From a virus, in the IMG/VR virus record IMGVR_UViG_3300034096_000294, positions 1 through 31,490 of that record: a stretch of 31,490 nt of DNA; one strand, 5' to 3'. Below, in pieces: positions 5,930 through 31,352 of this stretch. Position 1 is the first letter of the stretch. Each line of letters starts with the position of its first letter. The notes beneath the pieces are model-generated. The model ran no database searches. It was not told the DNA's origin and was given only the letters and a program-made list of their open reading frames with translations. Position numbers and translations under genes: made by a program.

Positions 5930-8382
5930 CAAGCTATAATTACAGCTATAATGTTCTAATCAATCGACTTGAAGCTTTTGCTGCTGGTCACTTTTTGATT
6001 AAGCGATTCACACATGGGCAGATTGACCTTGCAGACCAACTGCAGGACGATCAATACCCATTCATGCACGTAACACCTGACACGATTACTCCGATTCAGG
6101 GCGGTATGCAGTTCGGTTTCTTAGTCATGTTTGCTGACATACCACGCGACAAAGAATACAAAGCAGAATACCAGCGCGAAGTAATTAGCGATTGCATCCG
6201 ATTAGGTCAAGATTTGATAGCTGAAGTGCGCAATGGTTTGGACTTATTTGGTTTCGATGTGCAGCTGGTCAACATTCCAACGTTTGAACCATTCATCGAA
6301 GAATACAAAAACACAGTAACCGGGATTGCATTCACTTTGACACTTGAAGTCCCGTGGGATTGGAGCGCATGTGATATACCTGCTGTTTGGACAGTGGGTG
6401 GTTCGTCAAGTGGTGGAAGTGGAACAGGTTACGGCTTGACACTTCGCACCAATGGCGTAGATAACGCAGTTCAAAACATCCTTGACTTAGTAGAAGGCAC
6501 GAACGTAACCATCACAGACAACGGAGATGGTAGTGTGACTATTGATGCAGCAGGTGGAGGGGGTGGAGGTGGTGAGTATGTTAGTACCGAATACAATGCA
6601 AACCACATAACTGCATTAGGCAACCCTTACCAAATAGGTGACCGGGTATGGTATAACGGAAGTGTTTACAGATGCATTGCAAACAATGATGCAATCAATC
6701 CAACTAACCCGACTTATTGGACATTAGTTGCTGTTGGTTATCGCTTGCGTCAAACGCCTGTGGATTGGAATGCGACAAGTGGTGACTATCAAATCCTAAA
6801 TAAGCCAACCATTCCTGCAGCACAGGTCAATTCGGATTGGAATGCAGTTAGCGGTGTAGCTGAGATTTTAAACAAGCCCTTTATACCAACCAACCTTGAT
6901 GACCTTGCGGATGTAAACGCACCCACACCTTCGAATGGGCAGGTGCTAAGCTATAATAGCACATCAGGCGATTGGGAAGCTATTACACCTGCATCAGGTG
7001 GTTCGGTTACTTCGGTTGCTCTTACTGTTCCACCTGCTTTCAGTGTGACAGGTTCACCAATTACTACGGCAGGCACACTTGCAATATCGGGAGCAGGACT
7101 TGCAACACAATACGTGCGAGGCGATGGGCAACTTGCCAACTTTCCAACAACGGGTGGAGGTGGTTCATCAGTTAGCTACTATCTAAACGGCTCAATTAAT
7201 CAAACAATAGGTGGTAGCACTTACTACCAAATGAGCAAGACAGCTGTATTTGGTGCAGGTACTGATTTCACACGAACCAATGCACAAGGCAATGGATTGA
7301 TTGCGCAATTCATTACGGATGCTAATGATCCAAATGTGCTATTAGTTCCGGGCGGTAACTTTAACCTTGAACTTTATTTTAGTGCTTCATCAGGTGGTGG
7401 CTCACCTTCCTTCTATGTTGAATTATATAAGTATGATGGCAGCACATTCACACTTTTAGCCACCGATGTTGCAACACCTGAAGGCATAACGCAAGGCACG
7501 GTCATCGATGCATATTTTACGGCTCTTGCAGTACCGCCTACCACAATGGCGTTAACCGATAGATTGGCTTTGCGTGTGTTCGTAACGACATCGGGTAGAA
7601 CACTTAAGCTTCATACAGAAAATGGACACTTGTGCCAAGTAATCACAACACTTAGCACAGGCGTAAATGCAATCAATGGAATTACAGCGCAGGTTCAAAA
7701 CCTTGCAGTAGGCACAGCTGGTACTGACTTTGGAATAAGTAGCGCAGGAAGTACACATACATTCAATCTGCCAACAGCAGACGCAACAAATCGTGGTGCA
7801 TTGAGCAGCGCAGATTGGTCAACGTTTAATGGCAAGCAGAACAACATAGGACTTACCACAGTTGGAACTGCACTCGCCACACTTACCAATCCAAATGCGA
7901 TACGTTATTTAAGGCTTAACGCTGATAATTCGGCAACCGCTATAACAGCGGCACAATTAAAATCGGAATTATTAGGCGCAACACCTTATGGAGTGGTTGC
8001 GTATGGTAGTGCTTTTGTTAATACGGTTACCGCAAGTACAACAACGTATGGCACAATTACATCGGGTATTATTGCATTCAATGCCAATATCGCAAACCGA
8101 GAATTCACAATCCCATTTGGTGGCACGGTTAAAAATTTATATGTATTCACTTCCAACCAACAAGGAGCGGGTGGTTCATTAGTAATTACCATTATGCAAA
8201 ACCAAGTCGCTACCTCATTAGCCGTTACCGTGCCAGCATCAGGCACGGCAGCAACTCGCACTAATTTAACCGATAGTTTTACGGCCGTTGCGGGTGACAG
8301 ATTAGTTTTTAGATTCGTTAACAGCCACACAAACGTTAGCGCGGTAATCGTTTCAGTATCATTTATAATCGAACAGTTATGA
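5926..8382 (+). CDS. Tail terminator-like domain fused to a tail fibre
   Basis: 818 residues. Residues 1-160 resemble the small neck/tail-terminator protein of Bacteroidota phages (FPxMHVTPDTI-type strand, central helix, TVTGIAFTLTLEVPW end). After a Gly/Ser linker the protein becomes a fibre. It has DWNATSGDYQILNKP and DWNAVSGVAEILNKP repeats, an NLDDLADV segment and a GSVTSVALT module. The ATNRGALSSADWSTFNGKQN spacer is shared by many receptor-binding proteins. The last 110 residues are beta-rich and look like a BclA/TNF-type trimeric head. The host-binding tip is probably in this C-terminal part. The fusion of neck and fibre functions is unusual. Confidence 0.75.
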   Translation: MTSYNYSYNVLINRLEAFAAGHFLIKRFTHGQIDLADQLQDDQYPFMHVTPDTITPIQGGMQFGFLVMFADIPRDKEYKAEYQREVISDCIRLGQDLIAEVRNGLDLFGFDVQLVNIPTFEPFIEEYKNTVTGIAFTLTLEVPWDWSACDIPAVWTVGGSSSGGSGTGYGLTLRTNGVDNAVQNILDLVEGTNVTITDNGDGSVTIDAAGGGGGGGEYVSTEYNANHITALGNPYQIGDRVWYNGSVYRCIANNDAINPTNPTYWTLVAVGYRLRQTPVDWNATSGDYQILNKPTIPAAQVNSDWNAVSGVAEILNKPFIPTNLDDLADVNAPTPSNGQVLSYNSTSGDWEAITPASGGSVTSVALTVPPAFSVTGSPITTAGTLAISGAGLATQYVRGDGQLANFPTTGGGGSSVSYYLNGSINQTIGGSTYYQMSKTAVFGAGTDFTRTNAQGNGLIAQFITDANDPNVLLVPGGNFNLELYFSASSGGGSPSFYVELYKYDGSTFTLLATDVATPEGITQGTVIDAYFTALAVPPTTMALTDRLALRVFVTTSGRTLKLHTENGHLCQVITTLSTGVNAINGITAQVQNLAVGTAGTDFGISSAGSTHTFNLPTADATNRGALSSADWSTFNGKQNNIGLTTVGTALATLTNPNAIRYLRLNADNSATAITAAQLKSELLGATPYGVVAYGSAFVNTVTASTTTYGTITSGIIAFNANIANREFTIPFGGTVKNLYVFTSNQQGAGGSLVITIMQNQVATSLAVTVPASGTAATRTNLTDSFTAVAGDRLVFRFVNSHTNVSAVIVSVSFIIEQL

Positions 8383-9166: not shown

Positions 9167-10468
9167 ATGGCATTAACAATCGTAGATGAACCCTTCAACT
9201 GGGTAGTGCGTGGTCAAAAGATTATGCTCATTGCATCGAGCACGGAAGTAGCGCAGCAAGGTTTTCGCTATGGCTTGAACATTACTGTTGATGCTAAGAC
9301 GTACACGTTCTATTTGTCACCTGCTCCGGATGATAACATGTACTTTGACATTGCGCCACTTGTGGATGATTTGCGCAACCAACAATATCACTTTGCTACT
9401 GATGATACCGTTGATGACTTAAGCAAGTATACATTAAGCGCAGCAATCACAGAATGGTGGTTAGTCAATGTACCCGGTCAAGGATTGGTCTTAACAGAAA
9501 ATGAAGGCAGCGAAGTAACCATGATTGGTCGCATCGTAATCAATGCAGCCTATCAAGTGTTCGATGGCTACAAACCAAATCCTGAAGTTGGTGTTGATGA
9601 CATTAAGTATGTGCTTGAAGTTAGCTTTAACTACGCAATGAGCGACCGAAAGTTCGGAACGCATTCATGGTATTTAGCACCAACATGGGCAGCAGGCAAC
9701 CCAACAGCTCAAAACATTATTTGGATTCCTTCATATGAAACGGACTATGGAACTTTGAGCATACCGGGTAACGCAACTTACATGTTCAATAACCTTGTAG
9801 ACAACGTGCGCATTGTATTGTATAAGGCAAATGGCTCAACAGTAGGTGATACACTATCATTGAATGGCTACGATATAGAAGCTTTACCTGTATATCCAGC
9901 TAACTTAAATGATTGGGCAGGTTTAACAGTCAAACCAAATGAAAACGACACTCCCGGTTGGCGTTATTATGAGGTATTTGCGCGAACAGGTATTACGCAG
10001 TCAAGTGTAAAGTATCGCTTCTACAATGCTGCTAAATATGGACAGAAGGATTGCCACAATGATGTGATTCGTTTGGGATGGGTTAATAGTCGCGGTGGAT
10101 GGGACTACTTCAACTTCATTAAGAAGTCCGAAATGAACGATGAGATTGAGCGTAAGAAGTACAGAAAAGTGTTGTTCAATAGTACAACAAGCGTGTTCGG
10201 CAAAGAAGATCGCGGATTGTTGGAACGTAGAAATTTAGTTCAGCAAGTGTTGACAGTAACCAGCGACTTCATACAGGAAGGTGAATTCTTATTCCTTCGC
10301 TCGTTGCTTGTGAGCAATCAGGTCGTTTGGATAACACAGCGCAACGGTGAGAACATTGCGCTTCCTGTGAACTTAGACGATACCACTTACACTGAACGCA
10401 AAACACGTGACGGCAAGCTGTACAATCTGTCTTTGAAAGTAAGAATGGCTAACGAATACTGGACATAA
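9167..10468 (+). CDS. Putative distal tail protein
   Basis: 433 residues, strongly beta-rich with many Trp and Tyr. The C-terminal part (NSRGGWDYFNFIKKSE ... LVSNQVVWI ... LPVNLDDTTYTERK) is characteristic of a large tail-tip protein conserved in Bacteroidota siphoviruses. It lies between the neck gene and the largest tail gene. The reading begins immediately after the stop of the gp10-like gene. Baseplate or distal-tail role is inferred from position and composition. Confidence 0.65.
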   Translation: MALTIVDEPFNWVVRGQKIMLIASSTEVAQQGFRYGLNITVDAKTYTFYLSPAPDDNMYFDIAPLVDDLRNQQYHFATDDTVDDLSKYTLSAAITEWWLVNVPGQGLVLTENEGSEVTMIGRIVINAAYQVFDGYKPNPEVGVDDIKYVLEVSFNYAMSDRKFGTHSWYLAPTWAAGNPTAQNIIWIPSYETDYGTLSIPGNATYMFNNLVDNVRIVLYKANGSTVGDTLSLNGYDIEALPVYPANLNDWAGLTVKPNENDTPGWRYYEVFARTGITQSSVKYRFYNAAKYGQKDCHNDVIRLGWVNSRGGWDYFNFIKKSEMNDEIERKKYRKVLFNSTTSVFGKEDRGLLERRNLVQQVLTVTSDFIQEGEFLFLRSLLVSNQVVWITQRNGENIALPVNLDDTTYTERKTRDGKLYNLSLKVRMANEYWT

Positions 10469-25639: not shown

Positions 25640-25733
25640 TGTTTAGTTTATTGATTAATTCGATTACTTGCTCTTTGTTGTAGTAGTGCTGCATTGAATT
25701 GCGCACGTGTTCTTTGAGTTGGTCGGTGGTCAT
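25593..25733 (-). CDS. Small hypothetical protein (46 residues)
   Basis: ATG 25733 overlaps the end of the exonuclease gene, stop at TGA 25593. Helical, with HYYNKEQVIELINKLNNESK. The overlap of 47 bases with the following gene and the tight start suggest translation, but composition gives no function. Confidence 0.5.
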   Translation of the reverse strand: MTTDQLKEHVRNSMQHYYNKEQVIELINKLNNESKRQSMATVLELF

Positions 25734-26497
25734 ACGTTCAAGGTATTAAGGTATTCACGCCACATAGGTACACGCTCCTGAAGCTTTGCGATTGCATCAG
25801 CATCAAACTCCACAACCTTTTCATGGATGCGTTCAGCGATGGGTATATCAAACGCCCATTCGTCTTGTGGCGTTTCAAGGTTTGCATCCGGGTATTCGCG
25901 CATAAAACGTGGCATGTCGTATATCATGTTGCGCTCAATGCTCTTTGCTTTTTTGATGAATGTAGGGTCGCCTTGCGGATCAATAAGATTGAGCCTGCGC
26001 GATAGTCTATACTTCTCGTCATTAATCATTTCGATAGGTGCGCTAACTAACACGTAGCAGAAGGTAGCGCGTGGTGCGCCTGTTAACCAGCAGTAGGCTT
26101 GACCTTGCCAGTAGTAGTCTTTGCTAATGTCGCTGGTCTTTGCATCCATGAAGGTGTGAATATCCCAACTTGATTTAATATCGGGCACATTGATTACTGC
26201 ACCTGCTTCATCTTTGATAAGCAAATCGGGCGTGCCTTTGATGAAATCATTAGTAAACATTTCTTCGTTCTTGAATACGATTTCACCGCGATGCCTGCGC
26301 CACATATCGATAGCATCATTTTCAACAGCTAAACCTTTCTCAATGTACTTGTTGCTGATTTCTTTGTACCGGTTGTACTTCTGTTGCACATAGACTTCGA
26401 GCAATGCGCTCTTAGTCGTTTCGGATAAACCTGTTTTGGTTCTTGCATCGGTCATAAGCTTACCCAGCTGCGATGCTCTAAATAGTGTGTTGTTCAT
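25730..26497 (-). CDS. YqaJ/lambda-exonuclease-like nuclease
   Basis: 255 residues. The PD-(D/E)XK core is visible in order: EKGLAVENDAIDMW (about 53-66, motif Glu), KGTPDLLIK (about 87-95, catalytic Asp), DIKSSW (about 106-111) and DYYWQGQAYCWLTG (about 127-140, conserved Gln). These enzymes degrade one strand of duplex DNA and hand the other to a single-strand annealing protein. The gene for such a protein is directly upstream, separated by an RNA hairpin, so the two form a recombination pair. Confidence 0.85.
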   Translation of the reverse strand: MNNTLFRASQLGKLMTDARTKTGLSETTKSALLEVYVQQKYNRYKEISNKYIEKGLAVENDAIDMWRRHRGEIVFKNEEMFTNDFIKGTPDLLIKDEAGAVINVPDIKSSWDIHTFMDAKTSDISKDYYWQGQAYCWLTGAPRATFCYVLVSAPIEMINDEKYRLSRRLNLIDPQGDPTFIKKAKSIERNMIYDMPRFMREYPDANLETPQDEWAFDIPIAERIHEKVVEFDADAIAKLQERVPMWREYLNTLNV

Positions 26498-27987: not shown

Positions 27988-29289
27988 CTACGCCCACGAA
28001 TAGCTGCCGTAGTTTGGGAATAGTTCAAAGTACATGCGCATCATGATAGCATCTGCATAGTCAGGTGACTTGCCATGCATCCGGGCTATTTCATCTTTGG
28101 AAATAACTGCAAGCTTTCCATCTGCTTCAGGTTGCCTTCTACGTATCATATCCAGTTCCTGAACGATTACATCACGAAACTGATTCACTTTGAAGATTAC
28201 TTTGTTCTGCTCAATTAATTCTGCAAGCTTGAAATAACATTCTGCTTTTTGATTAGTAAACTTATCTGCTTGCTTCGCACGCCCACCATTAAGGAAGCCC
28301 CTGCAACGGAGCGCATCGACCGCACCCCCTCCAACCCCATCTTCATCGCAGATCACATTGCTAAGTTTGATACCATGTCTATCGCATAGCTGACGTATGG
28401 TAGATACAACTGTTGTGATGGGTTGCTTTCGCAATTCGTGTATTTCAATCAGGTGCAATCCATGCCACACGCAAATCACACTTCTATCTTTTCCAAGTCG
28501 AGCGATGTCGGAACTGATGTATTTATCGCCTTTGCTTTCTTCATCCCGGAAGCAGCGCAACAAATCTTCATACTGATATATCCAGTCTACACTTTCGTCA
28601 TAGTCCCAATCGCCTTCGAGCAATCGCTTTCTATCTGCTTCAGGAAGGCGCATCATCTTTGCTTCATAGACTGCATCAGGATTCACTGTATTATCCTTCA
28701 TCAAAGCTTCCACAAATGCTTTGTGTGGTGGCAATAATTCTTTTTTCCATGGATGCCAATAGTCATTGTATAACCAACCTTTCGATGGATTACAACTCAT
28801 CAAACCTTTTGGAATACCACCAACTAAATTGTAACGCACACGTGTGTCGATTATATCAACCGCCTTCTTTGTCATTTCTGCAACCTCGTCTAAGAAGTAA
28901 TCAGTAATTTCAAGTGATCCAAATCTATGGAAATCGGGATCGCTGGGTGTAGCTGCCATATCCATTAGGATTGTTTCACTACCATTGAACCAACGAATCA
29001 TGTTTAGTTGCCCATTATACGTGTAGTGTTCACCTGCCTTCAATCCCATTTGGGTGCATATCTCCCAAAAGCGAAGCATGGTAGATAGTTGCAGCTTCTT
29101 TAATTCAGCACGACCTATCAAACCACGTGTATGTGGATGCTTCAGTCTGCGTGCAATTTGCCAGTAACAACCCAACCATGTCTTACCACCGTATACACCA
29201 CCACCATACAACACCTGCTCTACATTGCTGGATGTAGATAGGTGCCGTAGGGCTTGCTCTTGTTTGCTATTGAATTGGGCTTGGTACAT
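27988..29289 (-). CDS. terL: Terminase large subunit
   Basis: 433 residues. The ATPase has a Walker A-type GGGVYGGKT (29-37) and a Walker B strand YFLDE (131-135, Asp134 and Glu135). The C-terminal RNase H-like nuclease shows ISSDIARLGKDRSVI near 250, a NVICDEDGVGGG segment near 315 and GKSPDYADAIMMRM near the end, giving the acidic triad. It pumps DNA into the capsid and cuts it. Unusually, it lies in the minus-strand arm with replication and recombination genes, far from the small-subunit candidate and from the structural genes. It starts one base before the end of the HNH gene (TAATG). Confidence 0.92.
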   Translation of the reverse strand: MYQAQFNSKQEQALRHLSTSSNVEQVLYGGGVYGGKTWLGCYWQIARRLKHPHTRGLIGRAELKKLQLSTMLRFWEICTQMGLKAGEHYTYNGQLNMIRWFNGSETILMDMAATPSDPDFHRFGSLEITDYFLDEVAEMTKKAVDIIDTRVRYNLVGGIPKGLMSCNPSKGWLYNDYWHPWKKELLPPHKAFVEALMKDNTVNPDAVYEAKMMRLPEADRKRLLEGDWDYDESVDWIYQYEDLLRCFRDEESKGDKYISSDIARLGKDRSVICVWHGLHLIEIHELRKQPITTVVSTIRQLCDRHGIKLSNVICDEDGVGGGAVDALRCRGFLNGGRAKQADKFTNQKAECYFKLAELIEQNKVIFKVNQFRDVIVQELDMIRRRQPEADGKLAVISKDEIARMHGKSPDYADAIMMRMYFELFPNYGSYSWA

Positions 29290-29864
29290 TATTCAACGTG
29301 TTTCCATCTACGAAGTATTACATCCTTGATAGTTGAATCTGCTACACCATATTCCAACGCTAACATCTTCCGGGTATATTGATATGGTTTAAACTTTTGT
29401 CGAATCTCTTTTACCTGTTCTTCATTCAATTTGGCTGTTCCGTTCTTGCTACCTTTTACAAAGTTGGTACATATTGGTTTTTGAATTCGACCTGCATCGT
29501 AGCTGTACTTTGTATTTTCAGCAGGTGTAACCCATTCCAAATTTTCTAATCGGTTATCGTCACGAACAAAGTTGATGTGATTGACTTGAGTCTTCTTTTG
29601 CGGATTTTCAATCCATGCAGAAGCAACCAAGCGATGCAACATAACTGATTTAAGTTTGCCTTCTTTCAAAATCACTGTGGCTAAATAACCTTTATGATTC
29701 TTAGCTGGCTTCATAATCGCATGCCTGTTGCTATTCTTATGCTTAGTGGTAAGCAATCGTCCCATATTACTAATCAAATACCTTTGATTTGTATTTGGAA
29801 CGTACTTCCAAAATTCACCCGGATTGCTTTGAATCGGTGAGTTAATAGATTCTAATGTTATCAT
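29289..29864 (-). CDS. NUMOD4/HNH homing endonuclease
   Basis: 191 residues. NUMOD4-like start (FWKYVPNTNQRYLISNMGRL, 18-37), HNH core at about 76-112 (MLHRLVASAWI, then VNHINFVRDDNRLENLEWVT with His96, Asn97, Asn104 and Asn108), and a C-terminal HTH/NUMOD1-type DNA-binding tail (AKLNEEQVKEIRQKF, YGVADSTIKDVI). Free-standing homing endonucleases often sit beside terminase genes and spread by cutting relatives that lack them. It has its own promoter with an 18-base palindrome, and ends in a TAATG coupling to the terminase. Confidence 0.88.
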   Translation of the reverse strand: MITLESINSPIQSNPGEFWKYVPNTNQRYLISNMGRLLTTKHKNSNRHAIMKPAKNHKGYLATVILKEGKLKSVMLHRLVASAWIENPQKKTQVNHINFVRDDNRLENLEWVTPAENTKYSYDAGRIQKPICTNFVKGSKNGTAKLNEEQVKEIRQKFKPYQYTRKMLALEYGVADSTIKDVILRRWKHVE

Positions 29865-30397: not shown

Positions 30398-30580
30398 TTA
30401 ATTATTAATTATTGCGATGTCATCTACCATGAGGCTTATTGTAGTCTTGCCATTAAAGTCGATTGTTTCTATTACTTCAAAGGTTTCGTGGTCGATGCTG
30501 TGACCATTGATGAAGCCAATGTATATTTCAACATCGTCATTGTACTGTGCAAGCTTATCCCACAATTCGCCTATTGTCAT
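30398..30580 (-). CDS. Small hypothetical protein
   Basis: 60 residues, acidic, with a YNDDVEIYIGFINGHSID motif recognised from many phage and plasmid small proteins of unknown function. Start overlaps the preceding small gene as ATGA. Nothing indicates the mechanism. Confidence 0.7.
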   Translation of the reverse strand: MTIGELWDKLAQYNDDVEIYIGFINGHSIDHETFEVIETIDFNGKTTISLMVDDIAIINN

Positions 30581-30738
30581 AGCTTATATTCATCTTTGTC
30601 AGTTAGTAGATACAACTCCTCAAAGATAAGACGCATTGTGAGATTATCGCTCATTGCAGGGCGCATGCTTCGCCTTGCTGTTAGCACGAATAGTTTGCGT
30701 AGCAGCTCCACTTCTTTCTGTTGATCGTATTGCTTCAT
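30577..30738 (-). CDS. Small hypothetical protein (53 residues)
   Basis: ATG 30738 to TGA 30577. It has a perfect GGAGG Shine-Dalgarno sequence nine bases before the start, rare for this host group. That GGAGGT is part of what looks like the broken end of another small gene (codons for Thr-Tyr-Gly-Gly-Asp-Lys, stop). The product is basic and helical (DQQKEVELLRKLFVLTARRS). Function unknown. Confidence 0.6.
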   Translation of the reverse strand: MKQYDQQKEVELLRKLFVLTARRSMRPAMSDNLTMRLIFEELYLLTDKDEYKL

Positions 30739-30758
30739 TTGTCACCTCCGTATGTTTT
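30735..30758. repeat. Imperfect direct repeat, left copy, flanking the tRNA-like gene
   Basis: 24 bases that match 30862..30885 in 20 positions. On the minus strand it encodes the C-terminal codons NKTYGGDK-stop of a vanished member of the paralogous small-gene family upstream. Confidence 0.6.
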
Positions 30759-30771
30759 GTTTTTAAAATAT

Positions 30772-30854
30772 AGGGGATTCCAAGATTCGAACTTGGACTT
30801 GGGAAATTCATGAGATTAAGCGCGCCCCACGCACTACCATTATGCAAAACCCCC
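30772..30854 (-). tRNA. tRNA-like gene with aberrant anticodon arm
   Basis: 83 bases. The acceptor arm GGGGGTT/AATCCCC (one G-U), D-arm GCAT/GTGC with AATGGTA loop, and T-arm CCAAG-TTCGAAT-CTTGG are all regular. The 34 bases between D and T stems do not give a normal anticodon arm. Either a GU-rich 5-bp stem TGGGG/TCTCA closes a nine-base loop, or a CTCATGA loop (CAT anticodon) has an incomplete 3-bp stem preceded by about ten extra bases. No CCA is encoded. It may be a decayed tRNA, a frameshift-suppressor type or a tRNA mimic. Confidence 0.6.
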
Positions 30855-30861
30855 ATTTTTT

Positions 30862-30885
30862 TTATTTATTACTTCCGTATGTTTT
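30862..30885. repeat. Imperfect direct repeat, right copy, flanking the tRNA-like gene
   Basis: Second copy of the 24-base repeat (20 of 24 identical to 30735..30758). It is the 3' end of the intact paralogous gene 30862..31140, coding for NKTYGSNK-stop. Confidence 0.6.
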
Positions 30886-31140
30886 ATTGTAATACTGTTC
30901 TGTGTTTAATGTTTCATTGTGCATTTCAGGAGTAACTTCACCATTCCAACCTTCTGCTGTTGACATAAATCCGTTTTCCCAAGCATCAACAATCTGCTCC
31001 CTTTCCATTTTTTTGGCGGGATAAAAAAGATTATGCTTCATTAGTATAAAATCAATTTTTGAAATTTCTTGATTTTCATATTTTTGAATCAAGGCACTAA
31101 TTTCATTTTCATACCACTCCACCGCAGTTTGTTTACTCAT
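30862..31140 (-). CDS. Small protein, paralogue of the next gene upstream
   Basis: 92 residues. It shares a layout with the 71-residue gene at 31137..31352: K-Q-T-A-V-E-W/Y start, central A-K-x-x-E-x-E-x-I-V-x-A-W/Y-x-x-G block and Y-x-x-x-Y-G-x-N-K end. This family is frequent in Flavobacteria and their phages; function unknown. It begins with a Shine-Dalgarno-like GGAGGTAAC that also encodes the C-terminus of its upstream neighbour, so the two are translationally coupled. Confidence 0.75.
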   Translation of the reverse strand: MSKQTAVEWYENEISALIQKYENQEISKIDFILMKHNLFYPAKKMEREQIVDAWENGFMSTAEGWNGEVTPEMHNETLNTEQYYNKTYGSNK

Positions 31141-31352
31141 TTGTTACCTCCATATATTTCATGATAAGCATCTTTACAATGTTCGCGCAAATATCCTTCT
31201 GTATAACCTTTTCGATAGGCATAAACAATATGCTCCTTATTGATTTCTTTGGCTATTTCAATGTGGTAATGTTGTTCTTCTCCCAATACTTTAGGAAATA
31301 GTTGTTCAATCAAATATTCTACTGCTGTTTGCTTTTTCATATCAGTATTCAT
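31137..31352 (-). CDS. Small protein, paralogue of the next gene downstream
   Basis: 71 residues: MKKQTAVEYLIEQLF start, IAKEINKEHIVYAYRKGYTE middle and AYHEIYGGNK end. Tandem copy of the family at 30862..31140, shorter by an internal segment. Its start overlaps the stop of the junction-spanning replication gene. An alternative start at the second Met (residue 5) would be nearer the conserved KKQTAVE start. Unknown function. Confidence 0.75.
   Translation of the reverse strand: MNTDMKKQTAVEYLIEQLFPKVLGEEQHYHIEIAKEINKEHIVYAYRKGYTEGYLREHCKDAYHEIYGGNK

Follow-up and report, generated by a model that had tools for sequence, protein, structure and literature searches.

The locus and its flanking repeats

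The DNA analyzed here, referred to throughout as the window, is the whole 31,490-nucleotide (nt) stretch comprising positions 1 to 31,490 of the IMG/VR virus record IMGVR_UViG_3300034096_000294. Within an array of minus-strand genes, it encodes an 83-nt tRNA-shaped RNA at positions 30772 to 30854, between a pair of small genes that we call KQTAVE-like and a gene of 53 amino acids (aa). The relevant features, all on the minus strand, are the following.

31137 to 31352, minus strand: KQTAVE-like gene, 71 aa; open reading frame with a single weak PADLOC match (E 0.005)
30862 to 31140, minus strand: KQTAVE-like gene, 92 aa; open reading frame with no Pfam, PHROG, or PADLOC match
30862 to 30885, minus strand: upstream direct repeat, the 3′ end of the 92-aa KQTAVE-like gene, ending in TAA (from the sequence and the junctions of relatives)
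30772 to 30854, minus strand: tRNA-like RNA gene, 83 nt, discriminator base T, CCA not encoded (RF00005 match by cmscan; same RNA in contigs L025, L083, L084, and L085)
30848 to 30854, minus strand: acceptor stem 5′ strand GGGGGTT, pairing 7/7 with 30773 to 30779, whose sequence in relatives varies by G-U/G-C changes only
30831 to 30845, minus strand: D arm, GCATAATGGTAGTGC, from the RF00005 match; the 19-nt TTTGCATAATGGTAGTGCG is shared with ordinary phage tRNA-Gln(TTG) genes
30825 to 30829, minus strand: anticodon stem 5′ strand TGGGG, pairing with 30800 to 30804 when the core is enforced
30805 to 30824, minus strand: expanded anticodon loop, 20 nt, CGCGCTTAATCTCATGAATT, invariant in 5/5 copies, its complement found nowhere else in the window
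30800 to 30804, minus strand: anticodon stem 3′ strand TCCCA, from the core-enforced fold
30780 to 30796, minus strand: T arm CCAAG TTCGAAT CTTGG, 5/5 pairs, position 59 being the sole variable loop base
30735 to 30758, minus strand: downstream direct repeat, copied from the 3′ end of a KQTAVE-like gene; it contains GGAGGTGA, and its TGA overlaps the ATG with which the 53-aa gene starts (from the sequence and the junctions of relatives)
30577 to 30738, minus strand: 53-aa gene following the tRNA-like gene (slot A; 67 homologous loci compared)
25730 to 26497, minus strand: recombination exonuclease gene (phrog_5715, E 1.2e-45), whose 3′ end is slot B as defined from junctions; no tRNA-like gene is present there in the window

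The two KQTAVE paralogues begin with MSKQTAVEW and MNTDMKKQTAVEY. As an earlier note on this DNA had described, the RNA gene lies between 24-nt imperfect direct repeats (30885 to 30862 and 30758 to 30735), which by our own count are identical at 20 of 24 positions. The note had also read these repeats as 3′ ends of KQTAVE genes, one of them surviving as an end copy only, and the sequence bears this out: the downstream repeat is a copy of the gene end without the remainder of a KQTAVE-like gene, it reaches into the beginning of the 53-aa gene (30738), and the GGAGGTGA that it contains resembles a ribosome-binding site. The further idea that the RNA had replaced most of a third paralogue is needless, a duplicated gene end fitting the arrangement equally well, while insertion at a gene junction is supported.

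The corresponding locus in relatives points the same way. We compared 67 homologous loci (the window counted) in which the 53-aa gene is preceded by 120 nt or more of sequence, and the window alone has the RNA there. In relatives without the RNA (e.g., L003, L006, L033, L034, L045, and L070), the KQTAVE-like joint runs straight into the 53-aa gene with the same joint sequence, matching an insertion in the window. Together with a similar 3′-end copy at a second site in four relatives (see below), these direct joints support the earlier proposal of capture, or insertion, of the RNA gene, here at a gene junction.

A tRNA core that default searches pass over

The tRNA-like gene is confirmed. When a 401-base stretch around the locus was searched with cmscan, the RNA matched the Rfam tRNA family RF00005 over model positions 1 to 71 with 42.5 bits (gathering threshold, 29; E 7.3e-8), and no other Rfam family, the Y RNA (YrlA) family included, matched the stretch at E values up to 10. 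The regular acceptor, D, and T arms reported earlier are all there: GGGGGTT/AATCCCC forms 7/7 acceptor pairs, GCAT/GTGC 4/4 D-stem pairs, and the T stem 5/5 pairs. Read off the sequence, the RNA also has T8, A14, A15-T48, G18G19, and a TTCGA T loop, the residues that make the elbow in known tRNAs. In the D-arm region, the 19-nt TTTGCATAATGGTAGTGCG is identical in ordinary phage tRNA-Gln(TTG) genes. The RNA therefore has the 7-bp acceptor, D arm, T arm, and elbow residues of a canonical tRNA; what it lacks is the five-pair anticodon stem with a seven-base loop, U33, and a purine at position 37.

Of the checks that the earlier note had proposed, the covariance model recognized the gene; ARAGORN missed it in default mode and returned a tRNA, tRNA-Phe(gaa), when introns were allowed. 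Over the whole window, default ARAGORN called no tRNA at all, and the fast Rfam scan of default cmscan also missed the RNA. Neither ARAGORN nor Rfam found a tmRNA gene in the window.

As a separate observation, 17 nt of the tail-fiber gene (8187 to 8203, minus strand) reproduce the 5′ part of the RNA exactly, in antisense orientation. We treated this match as chance; across 14 related records the search returned one match with two mismatches and one exact match, the latter placed by arithmetic in the RNA gene of L084.

The anticodon region

The stretch from the D arm to the T arm measures 34 bases, compared with about 22 to 23 in a corresponding tRNA. When the three arms are enforced in ViennaRNA, it folds into a five-pair anticodon stem, UGGGG/UCCCA (TGGGG/TCCCA in DNA; pair probability, 0.75 to 0.93), that closes a loop of 20 nt instead of 7 nt. 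The earlier observation of an abnormal anticodon region is hence correct, and the region is better described as the 20-nt loop CGCGCTTAATCTCATGAATT on a 5-bp stem. The unconstrained minimum-energy fold opens the D arm (−23.3 kcal/mol versus −21.3 kcal/mol for the cloverleaf), its energy is unremarkable (z −0.96), and the stem length of the window's anticodon region is ordinary compared with shuffles (p 0.11). The case for a tRNA shape consequently rests on the family model and on conservation, because the unconstrained energy by itself is not unusual.

Two other arrangements of this region had been put forward, a nine-base loop and a CAT-loop fold. We drew and scored both and rejected them, each having a pairing probability of 0.02 to 0.03 with the core enforced. 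This bears directly on the suggestion that the gene encodes a frameshift suppressor or some other unusual decoder with an enlarged anticodon loop. A nine-base loop on five pairs, two of them G-U, can indeed be drawn; however, we could not draw a loop of seven bases with U33, on five stem pairs in the anticodon position, that leaves the D arm intact, and we regard frameshift suppression as very unlikely because the nine-base form accounts for only about 3% and a 20-nt loop is ill-suited to the decoding site.

The output of ARAGORN with introns allowed raises a second possibility, namely, a translating tRNA-Phe(gaa) from which a 13-nt intron is spliced. Removing this intron leaves, by our own reading, a T at position 37, so the resulting loop is not normal; in functional tRNAs position 37 is a purine. 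Splicing of tRNA introns this short is not known from bacteria. The window proteins scanned included no convincing splicing endonuclease or ligase, the single RNA-ligase PHROG match (E 9.8e-5) lying under a far better match to a protease/unknown family, and the middles of the sister RNAs described below, which reach 66 nt and have covarying structure, are unlike introns. A spliced tRNA is accordingly very unlikely.

The same RNA at a second gene junction

The same RNA is present in four further IMG/VR contigs (L025, L083, L084, and L085), and its recurrence in four independent contigs argues against a chance resemblance. Over the five copies, 80 of 83 columns are invariant. The three that vary are T-loop position 59 and two acceptor columns with G-U/G-C changes, all of them neutral for a tRNA, and the loop, the stem, and the D arm are letter-for-letter alike in all five. 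The anticodon stem of the window type has no covariation, the five copies being too alike and the domain without variation.

This conservation is at odds with the earlier suggestion of a decaying gene, which would here be a captured tRNA that suffered an insertion in its anticodon arm and is now drifting. A D arm in common with ordinary phage tRNA-Gln genes would suit such an origin. Yet the loop, stem, and D arm are unchanged in 5/5 copies, the existing changes fall only at positions where a tRNA tolerates them, and the same RNA sits at two different sites. The phages themselves are strongly diverged at silent sites: in the nearby exonuclease gene, 39 to 52% of the fourfold sites differ for nine of the ten genome pairs, and 19% for the remaining pair, L025/L084, with the caveat that cassette transfer between phages could account for the low divergence of the RNA without strong selection. 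Taken together with the sister-family covariation described below, we consider decay unlikely.

In the four relatives, the RNA follows the exonuclease gene (slot B) and does not precede the 53-aa gene. There the 3′ end of the preceding gene is repeated on both sides of the RNA (AATACTTTAGCACTAT and variants), the second copy lying at the next start codon. In both slots, then, a short 3′-end copy after the RNA preserves the start of the next gene. Among 57 exonuclease junctions compared, 51 have a plain stop-start overlap, 2 are otherwise arranged, and 4 carry the RNA, a count that includes L083, L084, and L085, which were chosen for carrying it (without them, 1 of 54). The first genes in slot B are mostly small genes of no known function; six loci have a protein starting with MTHGSLFSGIGGFDLAA and L052 has another large one, and the two slot B genes scanned, those of L018 and L052, match DNA methyltransferases. 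The exonuclease junction is a cargo point. As a side observation, L016 and L052 carry differing methyltransferase-like genes after the exonuclease gene (confirmed for L052, judged by eye for L016).

The position of the RNA suggests yet another explanation, that the tRNA body serves as a processing signal at which RNase P and the 3′ enzymes cut polycistronic mRNA between cargo genes, the middle scarcely mattering. Each of the five copies does lie among genes of the same direction, and a copied gene end preserves the start of the gene that follows. If the middle were irrelevant, however, one would not expect the 20-nt loop to be invariant, and 51 of the 57 exonuclease junctions manage without the RNA by means of a stop-start overlap. 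A role confined to processing is in our estimation quite improbable.

The window RNA is rare, being present in 1 of the 80 terminase relatives kept. A relaxed body pattern aimed at more distant window-type variants returned the same four contigs only, an exact search for loop plus stem in the genome collection returned none, and GenBank phages gave no match to the window RNA, nor to the L264- and L150-type RNAs. A weak clue to the host comes from the terminase profile, which matched one Flavobacteriaceae MAG contig with 53% identity. The proteins scanned included no integrase.

A wider set of tRNA-like genes with long middles

We scanned IMG/VR for tRNA arms separated by a long middle, a pattern that picks long middles by design, and examined 119 contigs. 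Among the matches listed, at least 88 have at least 6/7 acceptor pairs and at least 4/5 T-stem pairs; 58 of these have an anticodon stem of standard geometry and 30 (termed odd here) do not. Again among the matches listed, the examined locus held no other ARAGORN tRNA for 20 of the 30 odd genes, compared with 11 of the 58 with a normal arm, and the 27 distinct odd sequences have T8 in 27/27 and a pyrimidine at position 48 in 23/27, neither of which was fixed by the scan. The window RNA fits the definition of the set, with an intact tRNA body, a nonstandard anticodon domain, and no other default-ARAGORN tRNA in the window. A few odd genes among the matches listed (L131 and L178), which lie in tRNA clusters, look decayed, a point that favors decay for part of the set. 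One further locus (L260, 6 kb) has five tRNA-model matches, most with long inserts.

Evidence of a maintained middle comes from a sister type in which it measures 58 nt. Its structure, drawn from the same seven distinct sequences used in the covariation test (including a slice, L281, of GenBank MW202828.1), has 27 pairs, with 100% of cells paired and 11 pairs changed on both sides, and neither value was reached by any of 500 shuffles. The 8-bp anticodon stem contributes three double-sided pairs, and in the inner hairpin three of four pairs are of this kind. Rows were left out for L276, which has one extra inner-hairpin base that MAFFT misplaced, and for L181, L261, L268, L273, L279, and L280, whose middles repeat rows already present. 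On the strength of this test, the 58-nt middle is a maintained structure and not debris. The copy in MW202828.1, a podovirus and the only GenBank phage record matched (L281:520-632), has compensatory acceptor changes and lies where no feature is annotated. In the sister loci, at E values up to 1, RF00005 was the sole family matching the sister RNAs that Rfam detects, and Y RNA families gave no match.

The same phage group also has a second, unrelated tRNA body. L199 and L263, which share several genes with the window (the 76-aa gene at 80% and the start of the terminase at 47.7%), carry between the 76-aa gene and the terminase a different tRNA-like RNA with the body AGTCAGG, a 5-bp stem, and a 21-nt loop. 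At the corresponding position, the window has instead a 78-aa gene together with a free-standing HNH endonuclease gene. The latter (29289 to 29864, minus strand), of the HNH/NUMOD4 homing type, lies directly before the terminase, and a 54-base stretch of it (29508 to 29561) is 87% identical to the I-TwoI HNH gene region of Staphylococcus phage Twort.

Searching exhaustively for the AGTCAGG body yielded 42 contigs, 7 of them with an ordinary Lys(TTT)-type arm, in a set where L271 has no full T-arm/acceptor match, L275 has an imperfect acceptor, and L132 and L277 also allow a class II arm. In the other contigs the middles range from 21 to 66 nt and are of several unrelated kinds, some recurrent; the 58-nt sister type described above is one of them. 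Three contigs of 343 to 373 kb (L257, L264, and L274) share with one another and with L210 an identical 49-nt middle in their AGTCAGG-body gene.

Middles that differ so widely on a common body could also reflect changing targets, as would be expected of an antisense or guide RNA, in which the 20-nt loop would pair with a transcript of the phage or its host, the body providing only stability. A long single-stranded loop on a conserved body fits this explanation, and the best duplex within the phage's own genome, at 10121 to 10160 (plus strand), reaches −21.7 kcal/mol. However, 6 of 60 shuffled loops pair as well within that genome, and the full loop complement, with up to 3 mismatches allowed, was found in the window at its own locus only. 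The 17-nt core of the loop occurs in five viral contigs, four of these occurrences being the RNA gene, and in the sister 58-nt type the middle is structured. An antisense function is conceivable but, on balance, rather unlikely.

A probable non-decoding RNA on a tRNA scaffold

Since its decoding loop is replaced by a much longer one, the RNA is probably not a reader of codons. Our preferred reading, to which we assign a probability of about 50%, is that it is a non-decoding RNA built on a tRNA scaffold and carried as phage cargo, perhaps for anti-defense. That it is a functional, non-decoding tRNA-like RNA is in itself probable. Given such an RNA, an anti-defense role falls somewhat short of an even chance.

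The mechanism that we envisage is as follows. The RNA would be transcribed within the minus-strand gene array, excised by host RNase P and the 3′-end enzymes, and supplied with CCA, as established tRNA biology would lead one to expect. The product would be a stable, tRNA-shaped molecule that keeps the tRNA core (acceptor, D, and T arms plus elbow residues) and has a fixed 20-nt loop in place of the seven-base anticodon loop, which would make an ordinary anticodon role impossible. The body would act as a scaffold affording stability and access to tRNA-binding proteins, the loop being the presumptive working part. The phage swaps the whole as a cassette at gene junctions, as its two sites show. 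Its most likely role would be that of an anti-defense decoy or inhibitor of a host factor that recognizes tRNA. The earlier note had likewise named a decoy, for host anticodon nucleases, as a candidate, and the RNA may act in this way. We propose anti-defense since DNA methyltransferases occupy the same slot in relatives; this slot-based argument is weak, most other slot B cargo being small genes of no known function.

More tentatively, and with somewhat less than even confidence, the window RNA may belong to a widespread, unnamed class of phage RNAs, in which a perfect acceptor-D-T core would carry, where the anticodon arm normally sits, effector modules that can be exchanged and are often structured, and would move as a cassette through anti-defense slots. 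The window RNA would be the member with a 20-nt loop, and the AGTCAGG set would exemplify module swapping. Should the wider set prove real, a class of phage RNAs is being concealed by the standard tRNA finders. The expanded domains could be used as direct baits for bound host factors, which makes non-decoding phage tRNAs testable. In the literature searched, which lay outside preprints and most subscription journals, we found no description of phage tRNA-like RNAs with an expanded anticodon domain.

Comparison with known systems

The usual explanations for phage tRNA genes are codon supply and the replacement of nuclease-cut tRNAs, and a conserved RNA with all but the decoding end of a tRNA fits neither well. 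With canonical tRNAs (RF00005) and the phage tRNA-Gln(TTG), the window RNA shares the arms, the elbow residues, and 19 nt of the D-arm region; it differs from them in its loop of 20 nt instead of 7 nt, in having no usable anticodon, and in being missed by default ARAGORN. Bacterial Y RNAs (YrlA) are noncoding RNAs that mimic the tRNA elbow. A tRNA-like elbow is common to both, while the window RNA has a free acceptor stem and in Rfam matches tRNA only. In engineered tRNA-scaffold RNAs, the anticodon arm is swapped for another RNA on an intact tRNA body, a plan that the window RNA shares, being in its case natural, phage-borne, and conserved.

A manual annotation guide gives the anticodon loop as exactly seven bases with very few exceptions (PMC9897764). 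In lysogeny, certain phage tRNAs take over from a host tRNA that has been disrupted (PMC10865867), but these must decode. The pseudo-tRNA tRNA-Other of Bacillus cereus has a role outside translation (PMC3399842); the window RNA shares with it a proposed, retained non-translation role, but tRNA-Other is chromosomal and has a Trp anticodon, whereas the window RNA has no normal anticodon loop. Van den Berg et al. (2023, PMC10264068) describe phage tRNAs whose anticodon-loop mutations are proposed to let them evade anticodon nucleases, as working, nuclease-insensitive tRNAs; the terms “insertion,” “loop length,” “intron,” and “pseudogene” are absent from the text. Those tRNAs resemble the window RNA in being phage tRNA-derived genes altered in the anticodon loop, and they are proposed there to counter host defenses that target tRNA.
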